From: [Eubacterium] yurii subsp. margaretiae ATCC 43715
Lineage (GTDB): Bacteria > Bacillota > Clostridia > Peptostreptococcales > Filifactoraceae
DNA length: 35,358 nucleotides
Reading direction: 5' to 3'
Assembly: GCA_000146855.1 (NCBI GenBank)
Contig: GL405246.1
Location: 2,116,754 to 2,152,111, forward strand
In this document: positions 12,444-35,358 of the stretch, piece by piece
Layout of the letters: each line of letters begins with the position of its first letter
How positions within the stretch are numbered: position 1 is the first letter of the stretch
The notes under the pieces: model-generated
The model's database searches: none
Told to the model about the DNA's origin: nothing
What the model saw: the letters and a program-made list of their open reading frames with translations, nothing else
Position numbers and translations under genes: made by a program

Positions 12444-12473
12444 TAATACTGATTTAGTTATAAATCAGTATTA
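12444..12473 (-). terminator. Terminator of the 4-hydroxybutyrate operon
   Basis: TAATACTGATTTA (12444-12456) pairs perfectly with TAAATCAGTATTA (12461-12473) around a GTTA loop. On the minus strand it is followed by TTTTTTAC. The stop codon of the last gene (12471-12473) is part of the stem. Confidence 0.85.
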
Positions 12474-12746
12474 TAGATGTTTAATATTTTCTTTTATAAT
12501 TTTTAAGGAGTTTTTATAATTTTGGCTGTCAATATTTATAATTATCTTTGATTTATATCCTTTTATGTCGGCACATTTTATAGGGCATCCTGATATTACT
12601 AGGAGAATGTCATAGACCTTATCGAAATTAGCATATTCAAAACTGACGTCTGTAAGTTCATCTCTTATTTTTTCGTATAAGCTTCCTCTTTCGTATCTGC
12701 TTTGACACCCTCCACAAAACTTGACTCCTACTTCTATTACTTTCAA
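12471..12746 (-). CDS. Small cysteine protein at the end of the 4-hydroxybutyrate operon
   Basis: 91 residues, function unknown. Two cysteine motifs stand out: FCGGCQSRYERG (Cys11 and Cys14) near the N-terminus and SGCPIKCAD (Cys54 and Cys58) in the second half, four cysteines suited to metal or Fe-S binding or thiol chemistry. No membrane segment. The start is TTG at 12746. The ribosome binding site CAGGAG sits 7 bases upstream and straddles the stop of the permease gene (gap of four bases), so translation is probably coupled and co-expression with the operon is likely. Some Pfam CGGC-domain proteins carry a similar motif, but the surrounding sequence does not obviously match. Confidence 0.7.
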   Translation of the reverse strand: MKVIEVGVKFCGGCQSRYERGSLYEKIRDELTDVSFEYANFDKVYDILLVISGCPIKCADIKGYKSKIIINIDSQNYKNSLKIIKENIKHL

Positions 12747-12750
12747 TCTT

Positions 12751-14112
12751 TTACTCCTGACGGTGTTCTTGAGCCTCTTTTTGTATTTCTTCTTTTTGAT
12801 TCAACAAGAAGTATAACAATACTCCTACTATAAGGCCCCAAGTAGCTCCACGTGCAACTATAACAGCCCCTACTACGCCTGCTATTCCTCTATCTATGCC
12901 TGACTTAGTTATTTCAATCGCAAGTCTTATACACACATAACCTTGCACTAGAAGAGTCATACTTAGTGCCGCAGGAAGAATAGGTTTTACAAGGCTCACT
13001 ATCGGCACAACTGCAACTGCCAAGAATGTAGTCCATCTGAAAGTTCCAACTCCTGAGAATATACTGTCCATCTTTTCTCTTCCTTCTTTGTACCTTTGAG
13101 ATACTGATGCTGTAACAGCAGCCCATAGTGGACCTGCAAGAGTTGGATATGCACAGAAAAATGATTCGATTAAATTTCTTATACCGCTTATGAAGTTTGA
13201 TCTGTTTGCATTGAATACTATCTTTTCATCTTGTCTTGCTTCATCTGCTTCTGAAAGAAGAGCTTCAGATGTTACAAAGTCACCAAAAGCAATTATATAT
13301 ATGATAATCGACATTGGAATCGCCTTGACAAACATATCTGAAGACGGGAATCCTATAGCAAATGGACTCATAGTATCAAAAATTCCTTTAAAATCAGGTA
13401 TTTTTATTAGAGGCCAAAATTCTATCTTAGGCATTGGAAATTCGCTTACTATAGGTCCTATAATAACTGCCAATATTATCGCCGGCAACATTCCATAGCT
13501 ACCTATTGTATCAATTATCTTGTTTTGTTTCCTCATTTTTTTGAATCTTGATGAGAATAAAACGAAAAATGCTATTACTCCCCCTATCCCTATAGTTATA
13601 GGTGTAGCTTCAAATCTCTTACCTTTGTTAAATTCTCCAACTATAGCCGCAAATCCGGCTCCCATTAATATTCCACTTTTTAATGAGTCAGGTACAAGGT
13701 GCAATAATTTTCCTGCTATTCCTGTAATACCCATGACCAAAAATATAATTGCTACCAAGAGTTGTACCGCTATTAGAGCCTGTATTCTTTCCGGTCCCTC
13801 TGCAAAAGTAGTCAGATATGCAATGGTTAGCGGTATGGACGGTGTAATCCATCCGGGTACTACCGGATCTCCAAATGTAGCATGCAAGGTATATAAAAAA
13901 CCGTTTATTATTACCATTCCCCAAGCATAGTCAAAAGGTATGCCAAGAGTGTCAGTCATTACCGGAATTGCTCCAAGACATGTTGCGCACATAAATATTG
14001 CTTGGAAAAATTCAGGTAGTTCTATCCTATAATGTATAAAAGGTATTCTCAACACGAACATTCCAAGTCTTATGCCCGGTTGTTCTTCACCATAGTTTCT
14101 TTGAATTGCCAT
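12751..14112 (-). CDS. Polytopic permease, candidate 4-hydroxybutyrate transporter
   Basis: 453-residue integral membrane protein with about 12 or more hydrophobic segments. Patterns such as FGDPVVPGWITPSIPLTIAYLTTF and the two pseudo-symmetric halves recall the NCS2/SulP-like permease fold, but it is not a clear xanthine/uracil permease. ATG at 14112 is preferred over an in-frame TTG seven codons upstream because AGAGGTGA sits just before it. It lies 39 bases after the CoA-transferase gene in the sigma-54-controlled operon, so uptake of 4-hydroxybutyrate or a related short hydroxy- or carboxylic acid is a reasonable inference. Export of a product is an alternative. The substrate is not shown by sequence. 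Confidence 0.7.
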   Translation of the reverse strand: MAIQRNYGEEQPGIRLGMFVLRIPFIHYRIELPEFFQAIFMCATCLGAIPVMTDTLGIPFDYAWGMVIINGFLYTLHATFGDPVVPGWITPSIPLTIAYLTTFAEGPERIQALIAVQLLVAIIFLVMGITGIAGKLLHLVPDSLKSGILMGAGFAAIVGEFNKGKRFEATPITIGIGGVIAFFVLFSSRFKKMRKQNKIIDTIGSYGMLPAIILAVIIGPIVSEFPMPKIEFWPLIKIPDFKGIFDTMSPFAIGFPSSDMFVKAIPMSIIIYIIAFGDFVTSEALLSEADEARQDEKIVFNANRSNFISGIRNLIESFFCAYPTLAGPLWAAVTASVSQRYKEGREKMDSIFSGVGTFRWTTFLAVAVVPIVSLVKPILPAALSMTLLVQGYVCIRLAIEITKSGIDRGIAGVVGAVIVARGATWGLIVGVLLYFLLNQKEEIQKEAQEHRQE

Positions 14113-14151
14113 ATAGTTCACCTCTTTATTCAAAAATTTTCCGTATTTGCG

Positions 14152-15459
14152 CTAATTTTCAAGTTTTAAATTATCATTGAATTTTTCATTGTGATACTTA
14201 ATTAATTCTTCTCTGAATTTTGGATGCGCTATTTTAATCAAATTTTCAGATCTTTGTTTTAGAGTCTTACCTTTGAGTTCGGCTATACCATATTCAGTTA
14301 CCACATAGTCAACATCATTTCTTGAAGTAGTCACAGCTGCATAGTCATCTATCTTTACTACTATCTTAGATGATTTGTCTTTGACTGTGCTTGGCATGGC
14401 TATTATAGATCTGCCGTTTTTTGCCATTGACGCACCTCTTACAAAGTCAACCTGTCCACCTACTCCACTTATCTGTGTCTTTCCTATACTCTCTGATACG
14501 ACCTGTCCCATGAGATCCACTTGTACGCATGAGTTTATTGATACCATATTGTCTTCCTTCATTATTATAGCCGGGTGGTTGACATAGTCTACAGGGAACA
14601 TTGCTATATCGTGGTTGTTATCTACAAAGTCATACAACTCCCTAGTCCCCATCAAAAATGTAGCAATCATCTTACCTGTATGAGTTTTCTTCATCTTATT
14701 TGTAACTACGCCTTTTTTTACCAGCTCTACAACACCATCTGTGAACATCTCTGAATGTATGCCCAAATCTTTTTTATCAGTCAAAAAGCTAAGCACAGCA
14801 TCCGGAATTGCACCTATTCCAAGTTGCAATGTATCTCCATCTCTTATAAGCTTCGCACAATTTTCGCCTATCTTCTTCTCTAACTCTCCGATTGCCGGTC
14901 TTGGCAAAGTATATATAGTTTCATCACATTCGACTATGCAAGTCGCATTAGAAATATGTATCAAACTGTCTCCCATAGTCCTAGGCATATTTTTATTCAC
15001 TTGCAAAATCACAGTTTTTGCTATTTCACAGGCAGGTTTTGTATAGTCTACAGATATTCCAAGGCTCATATAGCCATCGTCATCCATAGGTGAAACTTGT
15101 GCCAACACTACATCCACAGGTAATTTTTCTCTGAAAAGTTTAGGTACTTCAAAGAAAAATGTAGGAGTAAAGTCAGCTCTTGCCTCATTTACCGCTTTTT
15201 TAGTAGTTCCTCCTACAAACAGTGCATTATGTCTGAAATGCTTTTCCATACCTTCTTCACAATATCTTGCCTTACCCATAGCCACCATATGGACTATTTC
15301 TACATTCTCATAGTCATCCTTATTATCTACCATTGCATTTAATAGGCAAGCCGGCTCGCCGCAAGCATGTCCTACGATTACTCTGTCACCAGATTTTATT
15401 TTTTTTACGGCCTCCTGCGCCGTCATCTTTTTTTCTTCATATACTTTTTTTACATCCAT
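14152..15459 (-). CDS. cat2: 4-hydroxybutyrate CoA-transferase
   Basis: 435-residue CoA-transferase of the acetyl-CoA hydrolase/transferase family, matching 4-hydroxybutyrate CoA-transferase (Cat2/AbfT) of clostridia. It moves CoA from acetyl- or butyryl-CoA to 4-hydroxybutyrate. The active-site glutamate is Glu237 in GIHSEMFTDG; the CoA-binding glycine loops are LGIGAIPDA (213-221) and SGVGGQVDFVRGAS. The start overlaps the NifU-like stop by ten bases (ATGGATGTAA) with GGAAGGTGA as ribosome binding site, implying coupled translation. It supplies substrate for AbfD, encoded two genes upstream. Confidence 0.93.
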   Translation of the reverse strand: MDVKKVYEEKKMTAQEAVKKIKSGDRVIVGHACGEPACLLNAMVDNKDDYENVEIVHMVAMGKARYCEEGMEKHFRHNALFVGGTTKKAVNEARADFTPTFFFEVPKLFREKLPVDVVLAQVSPMDDDGYMSLGISVDYTKPACEIAKTVILQVNKNMPRTMGDSLIHISNATCIVECDETIYTLPRPAIGELEKKIGENCAKLIRDGDTLQLGIGAIPDAVLSFLTDKKDLGIHSEMFTDGVVELVKKGVVTNKMKKTHTGKMIATFLMGTRELYDFVDNNHDIAMFPVDYVNHPAIIMKEDNMVSINSCVQVDLMGQVVSESIGKTQISGVGGQVDFVRGASMAKNGRSIIAMPSTVKDKSSKIVVKIDDYAAVTTSRNDVDYVVTEYGIAELKGKTLKQRSENLIKIAHPKFREELIKYHNEKFNDNLKLEN

Positions 15460-15752
15460 TTTTTGTCACCTTCCAAGCATAGTTTGGCATATTTCCAAAG
15501 TTCATCACTTACTTCATTATAAAGCCTTACATCATCAATTTGATTAGGGAATTCTTCTAACAATTTCTGCCTTATCACATCTTCAAATGTTATTTGAGAA
15601 AGGGGACATTTGCTACAATTACCCAAAAGGGTAATTGTAACAATTTTGTCTTTAAAGGATTTAATCTTAATGTCGCCCTTATGTGAAGAAATGTATGGCA
15701 AGATATTTATCTTTATATATTCTTCGAGTTTTTGTTCATTTAAGATATCCAT
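15450..15752 (-). CDS. NifU C-terminal-domain-like protein
   Basis: 100 residues resembling the NifU/Nfu C-terminal domain. The CxxC that would ligate an Fe-S cluster is in LGNCSKCPLSQITFEDVIRQKLLEEFP. Nfu proteins carry or transfer Fe-S clusters. ATG at 15752 is chosen because AAAAGGA lies 8 bases before it; an ATG three codons earlier has its ribosome binding site too close. It lies 15 bases after abfD and overlaps cat2. AbfD needs a [4Fe-4S] cluster, so a dedicated cluster-delivery role is an attractive inference. A variant of the domain with another role cannot be excluded, because the sequence around the CxxC is diverged. Confidence 0.72.
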   Translation of the reverse strand: MDILNEQKLEEYIKINILPYISSHKGDIKIKSFKDKIVTITLLGNCSKCPLSQITFEDVIRQKLLEEFPNQIDDVRLYNEVSDELWKYAKLCLEGDKKWM

Positions 15753-15767
15753 ACTTTTCATCCTTTT

Positions 15768-17231
15768 TTATTTATCTTTTGATACGTCGATATGAGCTAT
15801 TCTCCTTGCCATTTCTTTCTTCGCTTCAAGATTGCCCTGTCTTGCTATCATTATTCTTTGAGCTTGAGGAGAGCCTGCACCGTGAAGAGACTCTGTCCTG
15901 TATCCTACAGCCGCTGTTCCAAGTGTAAGATTTTCTATAAGTCTTAGAATTCTCATTCTATTTTCTGTTGATGTACCAACTTTACCGTTTAAGAATTTCT
16001 TTACCCATGGTCCTGTTTCTTTGCCTCTCAAGTCTTTTTCAGACGGCATTGTAACCATCAAACCACCTGCTATGTCTTCTGCAAGTCTAGCTATTTCATA
16101 AGGGAATCTTGTAACGTTTTGTTTACATACGTTAGCAAGCAATAAATCTATCAAATATCCACCTGATTTAGTCTTTGTTCCTTCAGCAGAGCAAGCTACT
16201 GAGCAAGCCCACATTGTTTCGTTCAAGTGTTGCATTTCAATTATCTTATCCTTGATATGGCTTGCCTTAGGTACACCGTTGTAATCTGCAGCTACTGCAG
16301 CAGCCCCTATAAGCACGTCGCCAACACCTGTCTTACATGCGTAAGATTGTCTATGGAAGCCTGCAAATCTTTCTACCAACATTCCTGCATATTTCCATTC
16401 CTTACACATAAATACTCTTTCATTAGGTACAAATACGTCATCAAATATAACAAGAGCTTCCTGTCCACCGTAAGTATTGTTTCCAAGGTCTATATCTGCT
16501 CCTTCTTCCAGTTTTCTAGTATCGCAAGATTGACGGCCGTAAATCATAAATACACCTTTTGCATCTGTTGGTACAGCGAAACTTACTGCATAATCTTTGT
16601 CAGCTTCAGTCATTGCTATAGTAGGCATTATAAGATGTTCATGAGAGTTTATTGAACCTGTTTGGTGAGCCTTTGCTCCTCTTACTATAATACCGTCTTC
16701 CCTAACTTCTTTTATATGAACAAACATATCAGGATCTTCCTGTTGAGAAGGTGATAGTCCTCTGTCACCCTTAGGGTCAGTCATAGCTCCATCAACTGTC
16801 CAGTCGTTCTTTTGACATAGTTCCAAATATTTTTTGAATCTTTCATGGTAGTTAGTACCATATTCTTCGTCCATTTCAAATGTTGTAGAATATATTGAGT
16901 TGAAAGCGTCCATTCCAACACATCTTTGGAAACAACTTGCTGTCTTTTGTCCCAAAAGTCTTTGCATTTTTATCTTTTTAACAAGATCTTCTGTGCTTTG
17001 ATGGATGTGGCAGAATCTGTTAATCTTTTCGCCTGTAAGGTGGCTTGTAGTAGTTAGCAAATCTTCATATTCAGGATCAAATGCCAAATCATAAGTCATT
17101 GCTACTGAGTTAATAGAAGGTCTTATTATTGGGTGATCCACCGGATTTTCCAATCTTTCACCGAACATATACACCTTGATATCAAGTTTTTTCAAACTTT
17201 CAATATACTGTTTACCTGTCATTAATGCCAT
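15768..17231 (-). CDS. abfD: 4-hydroxybutyryl-CoA dehydratase / vinylacetyl-CoA isomerase
   Basis: 487 residues, close to the 490 of the Clostridium aminobutyricum enzyme. It is an FAD and [4Fe-4S] radical enzyme that turns 4-hydroxybutyryl-CoA into crotonyl-CoA in the cytosol. Cluster ligands expected from the family are present: Cys100 and Cys104 (TASCFQRC), and His293 and Cys299 (FHRQSYAC). Glu258 (GGQEAL), Tyr297 and Lys300 also match the active site. The frame is open 49 codons further up, but ATG at 17231 has GAAGGAGTG upstream and fits the family N-terminus (MALMTGKQYIESLK). First gene of the operon, with a sigma-54 promoter about 97 bases upstream. Confidence 0.96.
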   Translation of the reverse strand: MALMTGKQYIESLKKLDIKVYMFGERLENPVDHPIIRPSINSVAMTYDLAFDPEYEDLLTTTSHLTGEKINRFCHIHQSTEDLVKKIKMQRLLGQKTASCFQRCVGMDAFNSIYSTTFEMDEEYGTNYHERFKKYLELCQKNDWTVDGAMTDPKGDRGLSPSQQEDPDMFVHIKEVREDGIIVRGAKAHQTGSINSHEHLIMPTIAMTEADKDYAVSFAVPTDAKGVFMIYGRQSCDTRKLEEGADIDLGNNTYGGQEALVIFDDVFVPNERVFMCKEWKYAGMLVERFAGFHRQSYACKTGVGDVLIGAAAVAADYNGVPKASHIKDKIIEMQHLNETMWACSVACSAEGTKTKSGGYLIDLLLANVCKQNVTRFPYEIARLAEDIAGGLMVTMPSEKDLRGKETGPWVKKFLNGKVGTSTENRMRILRLIENLTLGTAAVGYRTESLHGAGSPQAQRIMIARQGNLEAKKEMARRIAHIDVSKDK

Positions 17232-17327
17232 TACGATACACTCCTTCTTCATAAAAATTAGGTTCTTATAACCTCTGCTTGTTATTATGTATAAGCTGTT
17301 TTTGCTTATTCTGTTAATTATTAATAA

Positions 17328-17342
17328 GCAACTTTCGTGCCA
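17328..17342 (-). promoter_or_regulatory. Sigma-54 (-24/-12) promoter of the abfD operon
   Basis: On the minus strand it reads TGGCACGAAAGTTGC: the -24 TGGCAC and -12 TTGC elements with the invariant GG and GC 10 bp apart, matching the sigma-54 consensus throughout. Transcription would start near 17316, giving an abfD leader of about 85 bases. The adjacent upstream gene encodes a sigma-54 activator. Confidence 0.9.
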
Positions 17343-17428
17343 AGAAGTATGAAAAGAAAAAATATATTGAATTATCAATGATTAAAAATAAAATTTTTCA
17401 TAATATATTTTTATTTTTAAATTCTTTT

Positions 17429-17444
17429 ATTGCAAAAATGCAAT
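17429..17444. promoter_or_regulatory. Upstream activator site 1 of the abfD promoter
   Basis: ATTGCA-aaaa-TGCAAT, a perfect 6-bp dyad with a 4-base centre, about 120 bases upstream of the predicted transcription start. An identical site lies 72 bases further up. Placement and symmetry fit an enhancer bound by the Fis-type helix-turn-helix of the activator encoded at 18068-19429. Confidence 0.75.
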
Positions 17445-17500
17445 AATTCTAAAGATGAACTATAGCTAATTTATTGAAAGTACAATTTTTAATCAATATT

Positions 17501-17516
17501 ATTGCAAAAATGCAAT
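17501..17516. promoter_or_regulatory. Upstream activator site 2 of the abfD promoter
   Basis: Second identical ATTGCA-aaaa-TGCAAT, centred about 192 bases upstream of the predicted start. The two sites share flanking bases too (TATTGC ... CAATAATT). The 72-base spacing is close to seven helical turns, placing them on the same DNA face. A TTGCAA half site follows at 17527-17532. Confidence 0.75.
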
Positions 17517-17890
17517 AATTTTAATTTTGCAATTTTTCAATCTGTACCTTTCATGTATAGATTGATTTTTTAAATTTTAATACGAGTTATCGTTTGATAT
17601 GTATTTTTAATATTATGATATAAATATCAGAATTATCTGAATATGTTATTAGTATAAAAATGACAGAATTTATGAATATTTTTATCTTATAATTGTTCAT
17701 CTAAATTTTTTAGATTTCTTTAATAATATAGTAAATGAAAACTTCACTTATACACATTTCTAATTTATTGATTATCTATTTAATCTATGGATAAGTCATC
17801 AATAATTTTTTAAAAAGTATATGATATATGACTTTATTATAAATTCAGTGAAAATATTTTATCCATCATTTTATTAACTTTTAGTATTAA

Positions 17891-17972: not shown

Positions 17973-18018
17973 AAAACAAATCATAACCATACTTAATTTG
18001 ATGGTTATGATTTGTTTT
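17973..18018 (-). terminator. Terminator of the sigma-54 activator gene
   Basis: A perfect 18-bp stem (17973-17990 with 18001-18018, arm AAAACAAATCATAACCAT) and a 10-base loop, 49 bases after the activator stop. The minus strand has GTTGAAAAT beyond a run of T from the stem end. It should insulate the abfD promoter from read-through. Confidence 0.85.
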
Positions 18019-18067: not shown

Positions 18068-19429
18068 CTACAGCATATACTTGTGCCTCTTTCTAGTAAA
18101 TGTAGATGGCTCCACACATAGCATATCAGCAGCTTCTTTGGATGTCTTGGTACTCTTTACAGCATTTTTTATCAGCTCTTTTTCCAATGACTCAAGAGCT
18201 CCTTTAAGACTCATTCCATCGTAGCTGGCACTATAATTGGATACTGACGCATTCCTAAGTTCTGTGGGAAAATCATCCACAACTATAGTAGGGCCTGTGC
18301 TTAGTATATACGCCCTCTCTATAAGATTTTTAAGTTCTCTTATATTTCCCGGATAGTTGTAGTCATATAGTAATTTCATAGCTTTTTCATCAAGTTTTTT
18401 ATCTTCTTTGTATAGGGAAATCAGACTTTCCAAAAATGAGTTTACTAATGGCAATATATCTTCCTTCCTCTGTCTTAGTGGCGGTATATTAATAGGAATT
18501 ACATTTAATCTATAGTACAAATCCGCCCTAAATCTCTTCATATTTACCATTTCTTCAAGATTTTTATTGGATGCGGTAATTATTTTCACATCAATGGGTA
18601 TGTGTTTTTCACCACCTACCTTGTAGACCTTTTTATCTTGAATTACCTTAAGCAACTTCGCCTGTAGAGCAAGTGACATTTCACCTATCTCATCCAAAAA
18701 TATGGTTCCGCCGTTTGCAAGTTCAAATATTCCTTTTTTTCCTTGCTTGGATGCTCCTGTAAATGCTCCACTTTCATATCCAAAAAGCTCAGACTCCAGC
18801 AATGTAGGCGGAATAGCAGCACAGTTTATCTCCATAAACACCTTGTCTTTTCTGTTGCCATGATTATGTATGAACTTTGCTATCATATCCTTACCAACAC
18901 CTGTCTCTCCTGCAATAAGGACCGTTGTATCGTAGGCGGCACATTTTTCAGCTCTACTTATTATCCTTTTCATCTTATCCGACCTATATATGATGCCACC
19001 ATTTTCTCTAATGAAAAGTTTCAACTTTTCTATCTCTTTTTGTTTACTATAAAGCTCTTCCTGCAACTTGTTAAGGGCAGTTATATCTCTTACTACAGTA
19101 ACCACCATAGACAGCTCATTGTCATCAGAATAAATCGGCGTGCCTGTTATCAGGACTTTTTTACCATTTTTCAATGTCTGATTCATAGTGATTTCTCTTT
19201 TTTTATCCAGCACTTCCAAAGTAGCGGACTGGTCAATCAATTTTTCTTCAACAATCTGCTTCATATCTTTCCCCAAAAATAGCTTCCTGTCACCACCACT
19301 TATCCGCTCATACGACTTGTTTACAAATATCGTCCTTGCCTTTCCGTCCGTAATATACACTCCATCGTTCATCTCTTCTATTATCTTTGTAAACTCACCT
19401 AACTTTTCATTTTTCATTATATCATCCAT
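18068..19429 (-). CDS. Sigma-54-dependent activator, PAS-AAA+-Fis
   Basis: 453 residues. The N-terminal PAS domain (about 10-120, [22 protein letters not shown]...[15 protein letters not shown]) probably senses a small molecule. A short coiled linker (about 122-140) leads to the AAA+ domain: Walker A GETGVGKD (174-181), the sigma-54 contact loop GAFTGA (221-226), Walker [10 protein letters not shown] (240-248), Arg-rich [15 protein letters not shown] segment. A Fis-type helix-turn-helix ends the protein ([24 protein letters not shown]). It has no receiver domain, so it is not a two-component regulator. ATG at 19429 follows AGAGGTG; the frame also has a GTG three codons earlier. Position and the perfect target promoter downstream make it the regulator of the abfD operon. 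Confidence 0.92.
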
Positions 19430-20323: not shown

Positions 20324-21226
20324 CTACGATGCCGCTACCAACTTTTTTGAGCTTTCATCCGCCTTTTGTTGAACTATGGGTTTAGAATTAAGCGACATTA
20401 ACAAACTCTTGTATACCGCTCTTGTAAATCTCGTATCCCCTGTATGCCCTACCATTACCTCATAAAGCAATGATATATTCGGATACATTTCACTCTTCTC
20501 AGAATTTAGGAATCTAAAGTCTTTTTGTGAACATCCGTTTAGAAATATAGAAAGATTTGAAATTGTTCTTGGCGTTGTTACTTGTTTCATCCTGTCTACA
20601 GTATATATCTCTTCAGTTGTAGCCACAGGTTTTTTCTTTTCTTCCTTACAAAGCAATAGCGAAGGATCTGCTTTGAGTACATCATGCACTATCTTATTAA
20701 GTGTAGGATTAACCTTAATAAATGTATCTAAATCCGGCTCCACATAGTAGAGCACAAATCTACTTATTGATGCCTCGTCAAGTATAGCTATGTGACCTCT
20801 GTCATTTGCCGCTATTATTATTCTCAGATTTTTCGGAACGTGCAAGTCCCCTATCTTTCTTCTTGTGGGAATTGACAAAAGTTCCGATGTAACTTCGGGC
20901 GTTGTTCTGTTTATTTCGTCCAAAAACAACAATACCCCTTTGTCAGGCGTTTCATTAGCTTGGCATACTGCTGCAGTTATTATATTATGCACAGGAAATT
21001 TCATCGTTCCATGCCCTTCTTTTACAGTAGAAAGAGCATTTCCTGTTACGTCCTTCTTATCTTGCAACTGGTTACAAGAAAGTTCAAAAAATTCTGCATC
21101 CATTTCATTTGCAAGAGATTCTACAAAGCAAGACTTTCCTATCCCTACTTCTCCCAGCAGCATCGGTATGACACCCGATTTCAGGTTCATCTTTATTAGC
21201 GTTTTAAAAGTATTATCAAACCTCAT
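20324..21226 (-). CDS. MoxR-like AAA+ ATPase (AAA_5 type), orphan
   Basis: 300 residues. Walker A GEVGIGKS (25-32), Walker B LLFLDEIN (99-106), sensor-1 region IIIAAND (136-142) and arginine in SISRF (153-157), the pattern of MoxR/CbbQ/dynein-related AAA+ ATPases. These usually act as remodelling chaperones with a von Willebrand A-domain partner. No such partner lies in this window: the gene stands alone, with 885 bases of non-coding DNA downstream and 652 upstream. The start ATG has GAGGAAC upstream. The C-terminal half (from about residue 195) is basic and has no recognised motif. Cytosolic; the target is unknown. Confidence 0.8.
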   Translation of the reverse strand: MRFDNTFKTLIKMNLKSGVIPMLLGEVGIGKSCFVESLANEMDAEFFELSCNQLQDKKDVTGNALSTVKEGHGTMKFPVHNIITAAVCQANETPDKGVLLFLDEINRTTPEVTSELLSIPTRRKIGDLHVPKNLRIIIAANDRGHIAILDEASISRFVLYYVEPDLDTFIKVNPTLNKIVHDVLKADPSLLLCKEEKKKPVATTEEIYTVDRMKQVTTPRTISNLSIFLNGCSQKDFRFLNSEKSEMYPNISLLYEVMVGHTGDTRFTRAVYKSLLMSLNSKPIVQQKADESSKKLVAAS

Positions 21227-32191: not shown

Positions 32192-35100
32192 CTATTCTAT
32201 TACTACAGTGTATTCCTTATATTCTCCATTTGGATATGTTTCTTTAGAGCTTACTTTTAACTTCATTCCATCTTTAAAAGTTTCACCAAATCTATCCTCT
32301 GTCATTAGATTTCCTGCAACATCGTATACTTCCAGATTTATATCATTAATTCTTAAATGCATTTGAAAACTAATTTGTTTAACTATATCTGCTACTGATG
32401 TTATTCCATCTATGACTAACTGAGAACCTTTAATCTTAGCATGTGCCTCTCCAGGAGGTGTATTACCATATGAATATGAAGGTCCTGTAGCCTCTACTCC
32501 TTCTAAATCCCTGTGTATATATGTTTCTGTATCATTATAACGAGTTCCTGCTATACTAAGTCTTATTGTATTTCCATACATTTTATCAACATCTTTTAGC
32601 CTCAGCTCATATTCCTTATTTTCTGCTGATATGACCTTAAACTCATCTTTAACGTTTTTTAACAGTCCAGAAATAGATGCTTCTGCTTTTACCATACTGT
32701 CATCAATAGCAGGTATATCCTTATCAAATATCTTGATTTTTATCTTAGTAGTATCTTCTTCATATGCCTTACCATCAATACTTATATCCAATATTTTTTC
32801 TTTACTTATATTTATTCCTTCTGAGCTACGAACATCACTTGAAACTGATTCCCCATCACCTCTAACCTCTACTCTTATAGTCTTACCAACATCTTCGTCT
32901 TTTATAATATATCTCCTTCCACTAGCTCCGCTTATTTCCTCTTCTATGCCATTTTCTTCCCTATACCACCTGAATATCAAATTTTCATAGCTTTCTGTAT
33001 AAAATAGCTCTTCCAACCTCACATTTCCTCTATTTGGTACTTTAATAAATACTTCAGCTGTAAGAGGATCACCTACTTGAACCACTTTACCTTCTTTGAA
33101 TCTAAGATCTTCTATCACATCAATAATGTTGAAATCAAACCTCTTTGTTCCATATATATATCTTCCTTCCCTTGTTTTAGGAACAAAATAAGCATAACAC
33201 TCTTGGAATATATAATTTTGTAAATATAACGGTCTTCCGTTTGATAGCAGTAATTCTATATCAAAATCATCTTTAATATCTTTTCCTTCACTTAAGATCT
33301 CTAAGTTATTTATAAAATTTTCTGCTGTTTCAAATCTACCTTTTATAAATATTTTATCATCTTCTAATATATGACTTGTCTTTATCTCCCATTCTTTTTT
33401 CTCAGGTAATTTTATCTTATCTTTTGCAATACTTATATTAGCATACTCAAGTACTTGATAGTTGCTATCATCAACCTTTTTAAACTTACACACTATAAGA
33501 TATTGCGGCACTTTATTATCAAGATTAGATATCTGCCAATCATTTAACTCTATATCTTGTCCTTTTGAGCTGCATATAAGATCTTTATCCAAATCTTTTA
33601 ATTCATCTACATAATTTTTAGGAGTATATAGATTTTCATTATAAGTTTTAGCTTCGTTGCTAATCTCATATTTATAAGTGATTTCATCAGATAATACCGG
33701 TTCTGTAGTTACTCTTACATTTGTCTTGAAAGTTTCCTCTGAAGGTCTTAACTCTAAATACAGTATATTATCCCTTTTATTTATTCGAAAGTATTCGCTT
33801 TCTATTGGAGCATTTTGACTAAACTTATCCCTTACTTCTACCTTTAGGTATCTCTCCTTATTTTGAACCATATATGTCTTTTCTACAGCTCCAACAATAT
33901 CCTCATACGGACCATCAGTTACTGATTGTCTTTTCCATTGATAGCTTACTTCTGCATTATCCGGTTCAACTTCAGCTGTCAAAATTGCACCTATTTCGCC
34001 AGATCCTTTTATAGTTACTTTGTATGCATTAGATATGTCTTGAACAAAAACCAAGTTGCTCAATACTTTTCCTTCGTACTCACCAATTCCTCTTACTTCT
34101 AGCTTTATAAATTTTCCTGCTTCTTTTTTTGTAATAGTATATTTCTTATCCGAAGAACTATAAGGTATTGGATTGTATTTTCCATCTTCGGTATCAGCTA
34201 CCATCCACTGATATTCCACTGTAGCTCTTGATGGTTTAACTTCAGCTATAATTTCTTCTCCTACTTTACCATCATTACGAACCATATCAACATTAATATT
34301 TACTGATTTTACTGCTATTTTGGGTAATGTTTTTGGAGGTTTTACAACCTTGTCTGCAACTTTTACAGACTTACTTGTCTTTTCACCTGTATAGCCTTGG
34401 CTCTCATCTCCACTTACTACTACTCTTATATATTTACCTTCTTCTTTTTCTGTAATAGTATATTCTTCTTTGTCTGCATCTTTAGCTATATCAACAAAAT
34501 CCTTGTCTACATCAGTGGCTGAAAACTGCCATCTGTATCTTACTTTTGCATCTTTTGGTGTAGTTGTTGCTATTAGTGTAGTGCCAAGCTTTATATCTTT
34601 GCCTGTTTGTTTATTTTCTACAACCACTTCTGTTAATTCTGTAGTTTTTGGAGCAGGCGGAACAACTTTATCTGATACTTTTACAGCCTTACTTGTCTTT
34701 TCACCTTTGTAACCTTGGCTTTCATCTCCACTTACTACTACTCTTATATACTTTCCTTCTTCTTTTTCTGTTATTTTGTAAGTCTTATATGTTGCACCTA
34801 CTATTGTTTGGAATGCTTCTGTCTCTTTTTCAGATATCTCCCATTTATATGCTACTTTTGCTCCATCAGGCTTTACATCGGCTGTAAGTATATTTCCTAA
34901 TTTTGCTTCTCCAATTATTTTTACTTCAGATATTTCTTTTTTATCAGGCTTTTTTTCTTCTTCTATTTCTAAGTTAGCCTTTGATGTATCTTTTACCTGT
35001 CCCTTTTTTTCTTCGATTAATTTTAACTTGTAATTTGAATGATTTACTATCTTATCTACTTCTGCTGTACCTTGTACTTCAATAGTTAGTATTTTATCTG

Positions 35101-35358
35101 TTGCACTTGGTATTACTATATCTCTTACCTTTGTGTCCTTTATTGTAAGGTTTGACTGTGCTGTTATCTTTTCTATTTCTCCGCCTGTTATCATATTTTG
35201 ACTTGCTGTCATTGAAGTAGTATATTTTTCTATCTTTGTTCCTTCTTCAAGTCTTATTTCTGAGTCTTTTGTTGTTGTTACTGTTTTATACTTTCCTACT
35301 AACTTTACTTCTTCTGACGTTTGTACTTCTACATTTGGAACAGATGCTGTGTCTGTAA
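32192..35358 (-). CDS. Large surface protein with Ig-like repeats (partial, start outside the window)
   Basis: The frame runs open through the right edge, so only the C-terminal part (over 1,050 residues) is seen; the Met at 35212 is internal. From that Met, five Ig-like modules are visible at about residues 94-179, 193-286, 299-391, 396-476 and in the 700s, each with the pattern YxW...TYxITxKExGKYIRVVV and a closing strand. Modules 1 and 2 share nearly identical DNA. A separate domain of unknown type lies between modules 4 and 5. The C-terminal 60 residues (VYDVAGNLMTEDRFGETFKDG...) resemble a beta-sandwich cap. No LPXTG, SLH or choline-binding motif ends the protein, so any anchor would be near the N-terminus. 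Adhesin or S-layer-like function is inferred. Confidence 0.8.
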   Translation of the reverse strand, partial: TDTASVPNVEVQTSEEVKLVGKYKTVTTTKDSEIRLEEGTKIEKYTTSMTASQNMITGGEIEKITAQSNLTIKDTKVRDIVIPSATDKILTIEVQGTAEVDKIVNHSNYKLKLIEEKKGQVKDTSKANLEIEEEKKPDKKEISEVKIIGEAKLGNILTADVKPDGAKVAYKWEISEKETEAFQTIVGATYKTYKITEKEEGKYIRVVVSGDESQGYKGEKTSKAVKVSDKVVPPAPKTTELTEVVVENKQTGKDIKLGTTLIATTTPKDAKVRYRWQFSATDVDKDFVDIAKDADKEEYTITEKEEGKYIRVVVSGDESQGYTGEKTSKSVKVADKVVKPPKTLPKIAVKSVNINVDMVRNDGKVGEEIIAEVKPSRATVEYQWMVADTEDGKYNPIPYSSSDKKYTITKKEAGKFIKLEVRGIGEYEGKVLSNLVFVQDISNAYKVTIKGSGEIGAILTAEVEPDNAEVSYQWKRQSVTDGPYEDIVGAVEKTYMVQNKERYLKVEVRDKFSQNAPIESEYFRINKRDNILYLELRPSEETFKTNVRVTTEPVLSDEITYKYEISNEAKTYNENLYTPKNYVDELKDLDKDLICSSKGQDIELNDWQISNLDNKVPQYLIVCKFKKVDDSNYQVLEYANISIAKDKIKLPEKKEWEIKTSHILEDDKIFIKGRFETAENFINNLEILSEGKDIKDDFDIELLLSNGRPLYLQNYIFQECYAYFVPKTREGRYIYGTKRFDFNIIDVIEDLRFKEGKVVQVGDPLTAEVFIKVPNRGNVRLEELFYTESYENLIFRWYREENGIEEEISGASGRRYIIKDEDVGKTIRVEVRGDGESVSSDVRSSEGINISKEKILDISIDGKAYEEDTTKIKIKIFDKDIPAIDDSMVKAEASISGLLKNVKDEFKVISAENKEYELRLKDVDKMYGNTIRLSIAGTRYNDTETYIHRDLEGVEATGPSYSYGNTPPGEAHAKIKGSQLVIDGITSVADIVKQISFQMHLRINDINLEVYDVAGNLMTEDRFGETFKDGMKLKVSSKETYPNGEYKEYTVVIE
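34344..34462 (-). repeat. DNA repeat within the surface protein gene, copy 1
   Basis: 119 bp, about nine in ten bases identical by eye to 34662-34780, offset 318 bp (106 codons, one Ig-like module). Encodes the segment ITEKEEGKYIRVVVSGDESQ and the start of the linker to the next module. Confidence 0.8.
34662..34780 (-). repeat. DNA repeat within the surface protein gene, copy 2
   Basis: Partner of 34344-34462. High identity at the DNA level, including third codon positions, suggests recent duplication or gene conversion, so the number of modules may vary between strains. Confidence 0.8.

Follow-up and report, generated by a model that had tools for sequence, protein, structure and literature searches.

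A sigma-54 promoter with upstream dyads and a neighbouring XanR-like activator predicted to control the 4-hydroxybutyrate operon of [Eubacterium] yurii

The stretch of DNA analysed here (35,358 nucleotides from [Eubacterium] yurii subsp. margaretiae ATCC 43715; hereafter the window) carries on its minus strand a 4-hydroxybutyrate operon in the order abfD–nifU–CoA transferase–permease–CGGC; neighbouring genes overlap or are no more than 18 bases apart. The first gene, abfD (15768–17231), encodes a 4-hydroxybutyryl-CoA dehydratase/vinylacetyl-CoA isomerase that matches the structure 1u8v with an E value of 1.5e-243. It is followed by genes for a NifU-like small protein (15450–15761; PF01106), a 4-hydroxybutyrate CoA-transferase (14152–15459; matches to 3eh7 and 3gk7 and to Pfam), a membrane permease (12751–14133), recognized by synteny and a weak, below-cut-off likeness to PF00860, and a small protein that we name after its CGGC motif (12471–12746), which was assigned by synteny and has no Pfam match. 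The permease is a candidate transporter, its substrate presumably being 4-hydroxybutyrate. The structure 1u8v is that of the dehydratase of Clostridium aminobutyricum, with three Cys and one His as the presumed cluster ligands. AbfD of the window aligns with it over nearly the full length, sharing the CFQRC motif and, in the presumed cluster loop, the His and the Cys, and all of the presumed ligands are aligned; it differs in reading HRQSYACK instead of HRQSYGGCK, so that the loop is shorter by one residue between His and Cys. The former version occurs in the window and its closest relatives and the latter in 1u8v, Megasphaera and others. The nearest AbfD found is that of Peptoniphilus indolicus (92%). 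At the far end of the window, 32192–35212 encodes a 1006-residue protein with weak Ig-like matches (PF23197, PF16709), for which a role as a surface protein is a guess.

Upstream of abfD, and also on the minus strand, lies a gene (18068–19429, ATG at 19429) for a XanR-like enhancer-binding protein composed of a PAS domain (PF13426), an AAA+ sigma-54 interaction domain (PF00158) and a Fis-type helix–turn–helix (HTH; PF02954). An AAA+ domain with the GAFTGA loop, which is exact and intact at 18752–18769, and a Fis-type HTH, the features by which enhancer-binding proteins are recognized, are thus both present, and the PAS-AAA-Fis activator of the original prediction is borne out by Pfam and by the loop. 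The product of 20324–21226, an AAA protein considered as a second activator, was rejected, its best Pfam match being PF07728. The activator gene and abfD are probably transcribed separately, because about 840 bp lie between them together with a strong hairpin followed by T residues (17974–18017, minus strand; −20.5 kcal/mol, z −6.4), a probable terminator 3′ of the activator gene that a simple terminator scan with a loop limit of 8 does not list. No Rfam element at gathering scores was found within the window, and no rpoN among its open frames; the source organism is presumed to carry rpoN elsewhere.

The intergenic region contains TGGCACGAAAGTTGC (17342–17328, minus strand), a perfect match to the sigma-54 −24/−12 consensus TGGCAY-N5-TTGC. 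This pattern occurs once in the 35,358 bases, against an expectation of 0.05 and at least one occurrence in 5 of 100 dinucleotide shuffles. As originally claimed, the element ends 97 bases from the abfD start codon (ATG at 17231), which is preceded by AAGGAG. By the −24/−12 convention, transcription would start 12 nucleotides downstream of the −12 C, at 17316 on the minus strand, giving abfD a predicted 5′ untranslated region of approximately 85 nucleotides. Further upstream lie two identical copies of the candidate enhancer dyad ATTGCAAAAATGCAAT, an ATTGCA-N4-TGCAAT palindrome, at 17429–17444 and 17501–17516 (centred, relative to the inferred start, at −120.5 and −192.5). They are the only exact copies in the window (expected 0.03; two at once in none of 100 dinucleotide shuffles), and the predicted spacing of 72 bp, near seven helical turns, is confirmed at 6.9 turns of 10.5 bp. 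To these we add a third, weaker dyad that had not been listed before, TTGCAATTTTTCAA (17527–17540), with one mismatch, 25 bp further upstream and centred at about −217. Distances from the dyad centres to the −12 site are 108, 180 and 205 bp, inside the 100–250 bp range for upstream sites given by Nie et al. (2019; PMC6615313). Sigma-70-like hexamers occur at the locus about as often as in shuffled sequence, so that the operon may have an additional vegetative promoter.

The conservation of these elements was followed over abfD loci from two sources, namely 70 loci from named genomes and the genomes of the order of Anaerosphaera, where AbfD was found in 45 of 249. From the 70, none of them titled Clostridium, 22 loci were examined directly, L172 and L173 stood in for L005 and L021, and 46, from archaea, Bacteroidota, Chloroflexota, Desulfovibrio and others, fell outside the comparison. 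The activator-adjacent class comprised loci in which abfD is immediately preceded by a relative of the activator, or which read activator–rpoN–abfD; from the comparison as a whole, L171, L181, L205 and L207 were dropped as the same as or near-identical to other loci, L192 for overlapping activator and abfD frames, and L001 and L014 for N runs or too little upstream DNA. All 19 activator-adjacent loci (including the close pairs L172/L173 and L210/L211) show a −24/−12 element with at most one mismatch, perfect in 15 and with one mismatch in four, together with at least one TTGCA-N4-TGCAA dyad with at most one mismatch, and the conservation upstream of abfD in relatives that had been proposed as a check is thereby found. 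Their dyads number 40, whereas 300 shuffles gave 1.16 on average and never more than 6. Among the 33 distinct abfD loci that have no activator upstream (34 rows, L022 and L215 being the same locus), 14 have a near-consensus −24/−12 element and three have dyads, all three being Megasphaera loci whose activator gene is on the opposite side of the cluster. The difference in dyads between the two groups (19/19 versus 3/33) corresponds to a Fisher p of 2e-11, with kinship ignored. The −24/−12 element alone is not specific to activator-linked loci, as the 14 near-consensus copies demonstrate.

Loci with the activator 1.8–4.2 kb upstream of abfD were taken separately (L004, L183–L185, L189, L191 and L175; L054 was left out), and in six of these seven, four of the six forming one close group, both elements lie directly behind the activator gene; in the seventh, L175 of genome G098, the −24/−12 element is present without a dyad. 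Five of the 34 rows without an upstream activator have one elsewhere in the stretch (L008, L196, L198, L202 and L209). At L196, where it lies downstream of abfD, dyads and a one-mismatch −24/−12 element follow the activator gene; behind the L209 activator there is a one-mismatch −24/−12 element and no dyads, and behind those of L198 and L202 neither element was found. The order of abfD and activator at L196 is swapped, and the CoA-transferase gene lies about 3 kb beyond the elements. Six Megasphaera-type loci have a clade activator on the contig that carries abfD; at three of them (L008, L010 and L017) the −24/−12 element is present, and upstream of abfD no dyad with at most one mismatch was found. 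The 21 spacings between neighbouring dyads at the 19 loci fall mostly into two classes, 17–19 bp (ten pairs) and 65–78 bp (seven pairs), the remaining four being 25, 31, 57 and 106 bp; the 72 bp of the window fits the longer class and its 25 bp fits neither. The most constant positions of TTGCANNNNTGCAA are T2, G3, A5, T10, C12 and A13, in sites selected by the same consensus. Six exact dyads were found away from abfD in eight relatives, none with a −24/−12 element within the surrounding 2–3 kb or so.

The distribution of rpoN runs parallel. It was found in all eight close relatives searched and in 43 of the 45 abfD-bearing genomes of the order, compared with 145 of 249 overall (Fisher p 1e-9, kinship ignored). 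The two exceptions, G049 (AbfD 87% identical) and G127 (67–68%), have no activators and carry neither the −24/−12 element nor dyads upstream of abfD (L174 and L178), and are natural controls for the need for sigma-54.

Taken as a whole, these patterns make it very likely that sigma-54 and the neighbouring XanR-like activator, acting through the upstream dyads, switch on the abfD operon, an estimate that came down by the smallest of steps once the dyad-less Megasphaera loci had been taken into account. The one-component, PAS-type activator would bind the TTGCA-N4-TGCAA palindromes at −120, −192 and about −217 and, presumably by looping, reach the RNA polymerase–sigma-54 holoenzyme held at −24/−12, and its ATP hydrolysis would open the promoter of abfD–nifU–CoA transferase–permease–CGGC. 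The operon would then import 4-hydroxybutyrate, load it onto CoA and dehydrate it to crotonyl-CoA; the ligand of the PAS domain might be 4-hydroxybutyrate or its CoA ester, which is a guess. The proposal that regulator, target site and promoter belong together thus draws support from their co-occurrence across relatives and from the joint absence of both elements upstream of abfD in G049 and G127. It yields a concrete motif for enhancer searches, TTGCA-N4-TGCAA, together with a conserved regulator of 4-hydroxybutyrate fermentation in anaerobes. 4-Hydroxybutyrate (GHB) is a human metabolite and drug, and some of these anaerobes come from the human body.

Two other explanations deserve consideration. 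The dyads might bind a different regulator, a repressor for example, with the activator next to them by coincidence, and the loci at which a clade activator occurs without dyads (L008, L010, L017 and L175) speak for this. The abfD-linked activators, those of Megasphaera included, form one clade of 31 rows with support 100/99 against 13 others (L054, L135 and a fragment of L208 are not in the tree, whose outside sample is limited to these 13 rows), and the dyads track this clade, whether the activator is adjacent (19/19), farther upstream (6/7) or downstream (L196). They are nearly absent where the clade is missing, and also upstream of perfect −24/−12 sites near other activators, where a one-mismatch dyad was found at only one of 12 distinct loci; from this count L126, which is G006's own abfD activator, has been removed, and the duplicates L117 and L170 enter it once (raw tally 2/14). 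Moreover, the recognition region reads [SA]TFVRKR in 21 of the 31 clade activators and STFTRKR in the window, whereas at L175, where the dyad is gone, the HTH reads STFSRKLNYY (STFSRKL versus STFTRKR). We therefore regard a separate dyad-binding regulator as improbable. Three stretches near activators of other clades (L170, L219 and L221, from P. indolicus, G061 and G138) hold rpoN and the activator beside permease-like and Cys/Met-lyase-like genes, so called by BLAST for L170 and by eye for L219 and L221, with a −24/−12 element; another local sigma-54 module is possible there.

The other explanation holds that a vegetative promoter mainly drives the operon and that the sigma-54 site is a relic in an organism that has lost rpoN. 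The lack of rpoN among the open frames of the window is in line with it, as is the existence of two abfD-bearing genomes of the order without the gene, but G049 and G127 show neither DNA element, whereas the activator, its GAFTGA loop, both exact dyads and the perfect −24/−12 element are intact here, and we consider a relic slightly less credible still than a different regulator. Control by sigma-54 and the adjacent activator is the reading retained below.

In several relatives of the source organism rpoN itself lies at the locus. It is found within 7 kb of abfD in eight genomes, those of Peptoniphilus lacydonensis, P. senegalensis, Criibacterium, G098 and four Megasphaera (G253–G256); in G257 the two genes share a contig but are about 11.5 kb apart. 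Loci with rpoN inside or beside the 4-hydroxybutyrate cluster are L172, L173, L171, L175 and L256–L259. In P. lacydonensis and P. senegalensis the order is activator–rpoN–abfD, the activator being the only one in the genome, and in Criibacterium rpoN closes the cluster, 26 bases after the CGGC gene. G098 likewise has a single activator and Criibacterium one intact and two partial ones; the two partial matches in G003 lie on other contigs than its one intact activator, one has an internal stop, and they look as if other sigma-54 circuits had decayed. Few of the perfect −24/−12 sites lie outside open frames of at least 100 codons (1/15 in P. lacydonensis, 3/19 in P. senegalensis and 1/12 in Criibacterium), and among the perfect sites exactly one in each of these three genomes, that of abfD, has dyads; further targets with mismatched −24/−12 sites are possible in them. 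The rpoN-less genome G049 has 13 perfect sites, of which the five inspected all lie inside frames, and is a better control than the reversed pattern, whose background of 0–1 against 8–19 sites per genome is unfair.

One-activator genomes with dyads at the abfD site alone suggest that sigma-54 serves a single pathway there. It could have become a private, pathway-specific sigma factor in some Peptoniphilus and their relatives, encoded with its activator in or beside the 4-hydroxybutyrate cluster, captured perhaps more than once and perhaps evolving fast, a proposal that we put forward tentatively, its likelihood falling a little short of even. The rpoNs of the clusters do not group in a tree, and several are on long branches; this pattern fits repeated capture with fast change or a long-branch artefact. 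A single travelling rpoN cassette was considered and is unsupported by this tree, the long branches making it weak evidence either way. The four Megasphaera genomes (G253–G256) encode 3–8 activators each, and sigma-54 is therefore not private as a whole there. Three of them (G253, G254 and G256) have two or three copies of rpoN, one near abfD, which may be the dedicated one; some of their copies lie near an activator of their own and are possibly separate sigma-54/activator pairs.

Among 17 single-activator genomes compared (Criibacterium counted by its intact one), rpoN lies within 10 kb of the sole activator in eight. Five of these are G003, G005, G008, G098 and G257; the pairs in the other three (G001, G061 and G100) neighbour other genes, the assignment of G001 being uncertain because a further activator could be concealed in the Ns that precede its abfD. 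Other single-activator genomes thus tie rpoN to other operons. At L220 (G100) the sole activator is within about 6 kb of rpoN with other genes between, and no near-consensus −24/−12 element was found in that stretch. The window carries the same circuit as the genomes with rpoN in the cluster, its own cluster being without the gene. Searches on Peptoniphilus rpoN and, by title, Megasphaera sigma54 found no treatment of rpoN at abfD, and the dedication of sigma-54 with rpoN near abfD, which lies outside the window, is what may be new. If true, it would offer very small natural systems of one sigma factor, one activator and one promoter, in which the reduction of a global sigma factor to local duty could be tested, as well as compact parts for work on transcription.

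The control of abfD described here had been thought undescribed. Sigma-54 control of the abfD operon is, however, already predicted in Clostridium, where Nie, Dong and Yang assign to XanR the targets abfD-nifU-hyp-ach-golB and acp-caiC-luxEC and call the XanR motif distinct (Nie et al., 2019; PMC6615313); the six fragments that they used for EMSA do not include the abfD promoter. According to a 2025 survey, COG2368, to which 4-hydroxybutyryl-CoA dehydratase belongs, is under sigma-54 control, primarily in Clostridia (PMC12316311), and no other treatment of sigma-54 or XanR control of abfD was found in the open-licence literature. In four Megasphaera loci, luxE–luxC–AMP ligase–rpoN–activator occur in this order beside nifU and abfD (by Pfam for the L256 copies). 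In Megasphaera and at L017 and L175, relatives of luxE, luxC and the AMP ligase adjoin abfD and activators of the clade; they were not seen at the other loci compared, the window included. Because of this Megasphaera arrangement, the activator of the window very probably belongs to the XanR group.

The XanR regulon resembles the window in its gene content, abfD–nifU–(hyp)–CoA transferase–golB, where golB would by position be the CGGC gene, in control inferred from sites, and in multiple upstream sites, which are the rule for most groups and are matched by the multiple dyads here; it differs in gene order, in the permease gene and in lineage (Nie et al., 2019; PMC6615313). A sole activator for sigma-54 is, according to PMC3162934, found in Lactobacillus plantarum and Chlamydia trachomatis, to which some abfD-bearing relatives are similar in having one enhancer-binding protein; unlike in those cases, the activator here belongs to the PAS-Fis type, and several relatives have rpoN in or beside the target cluster.
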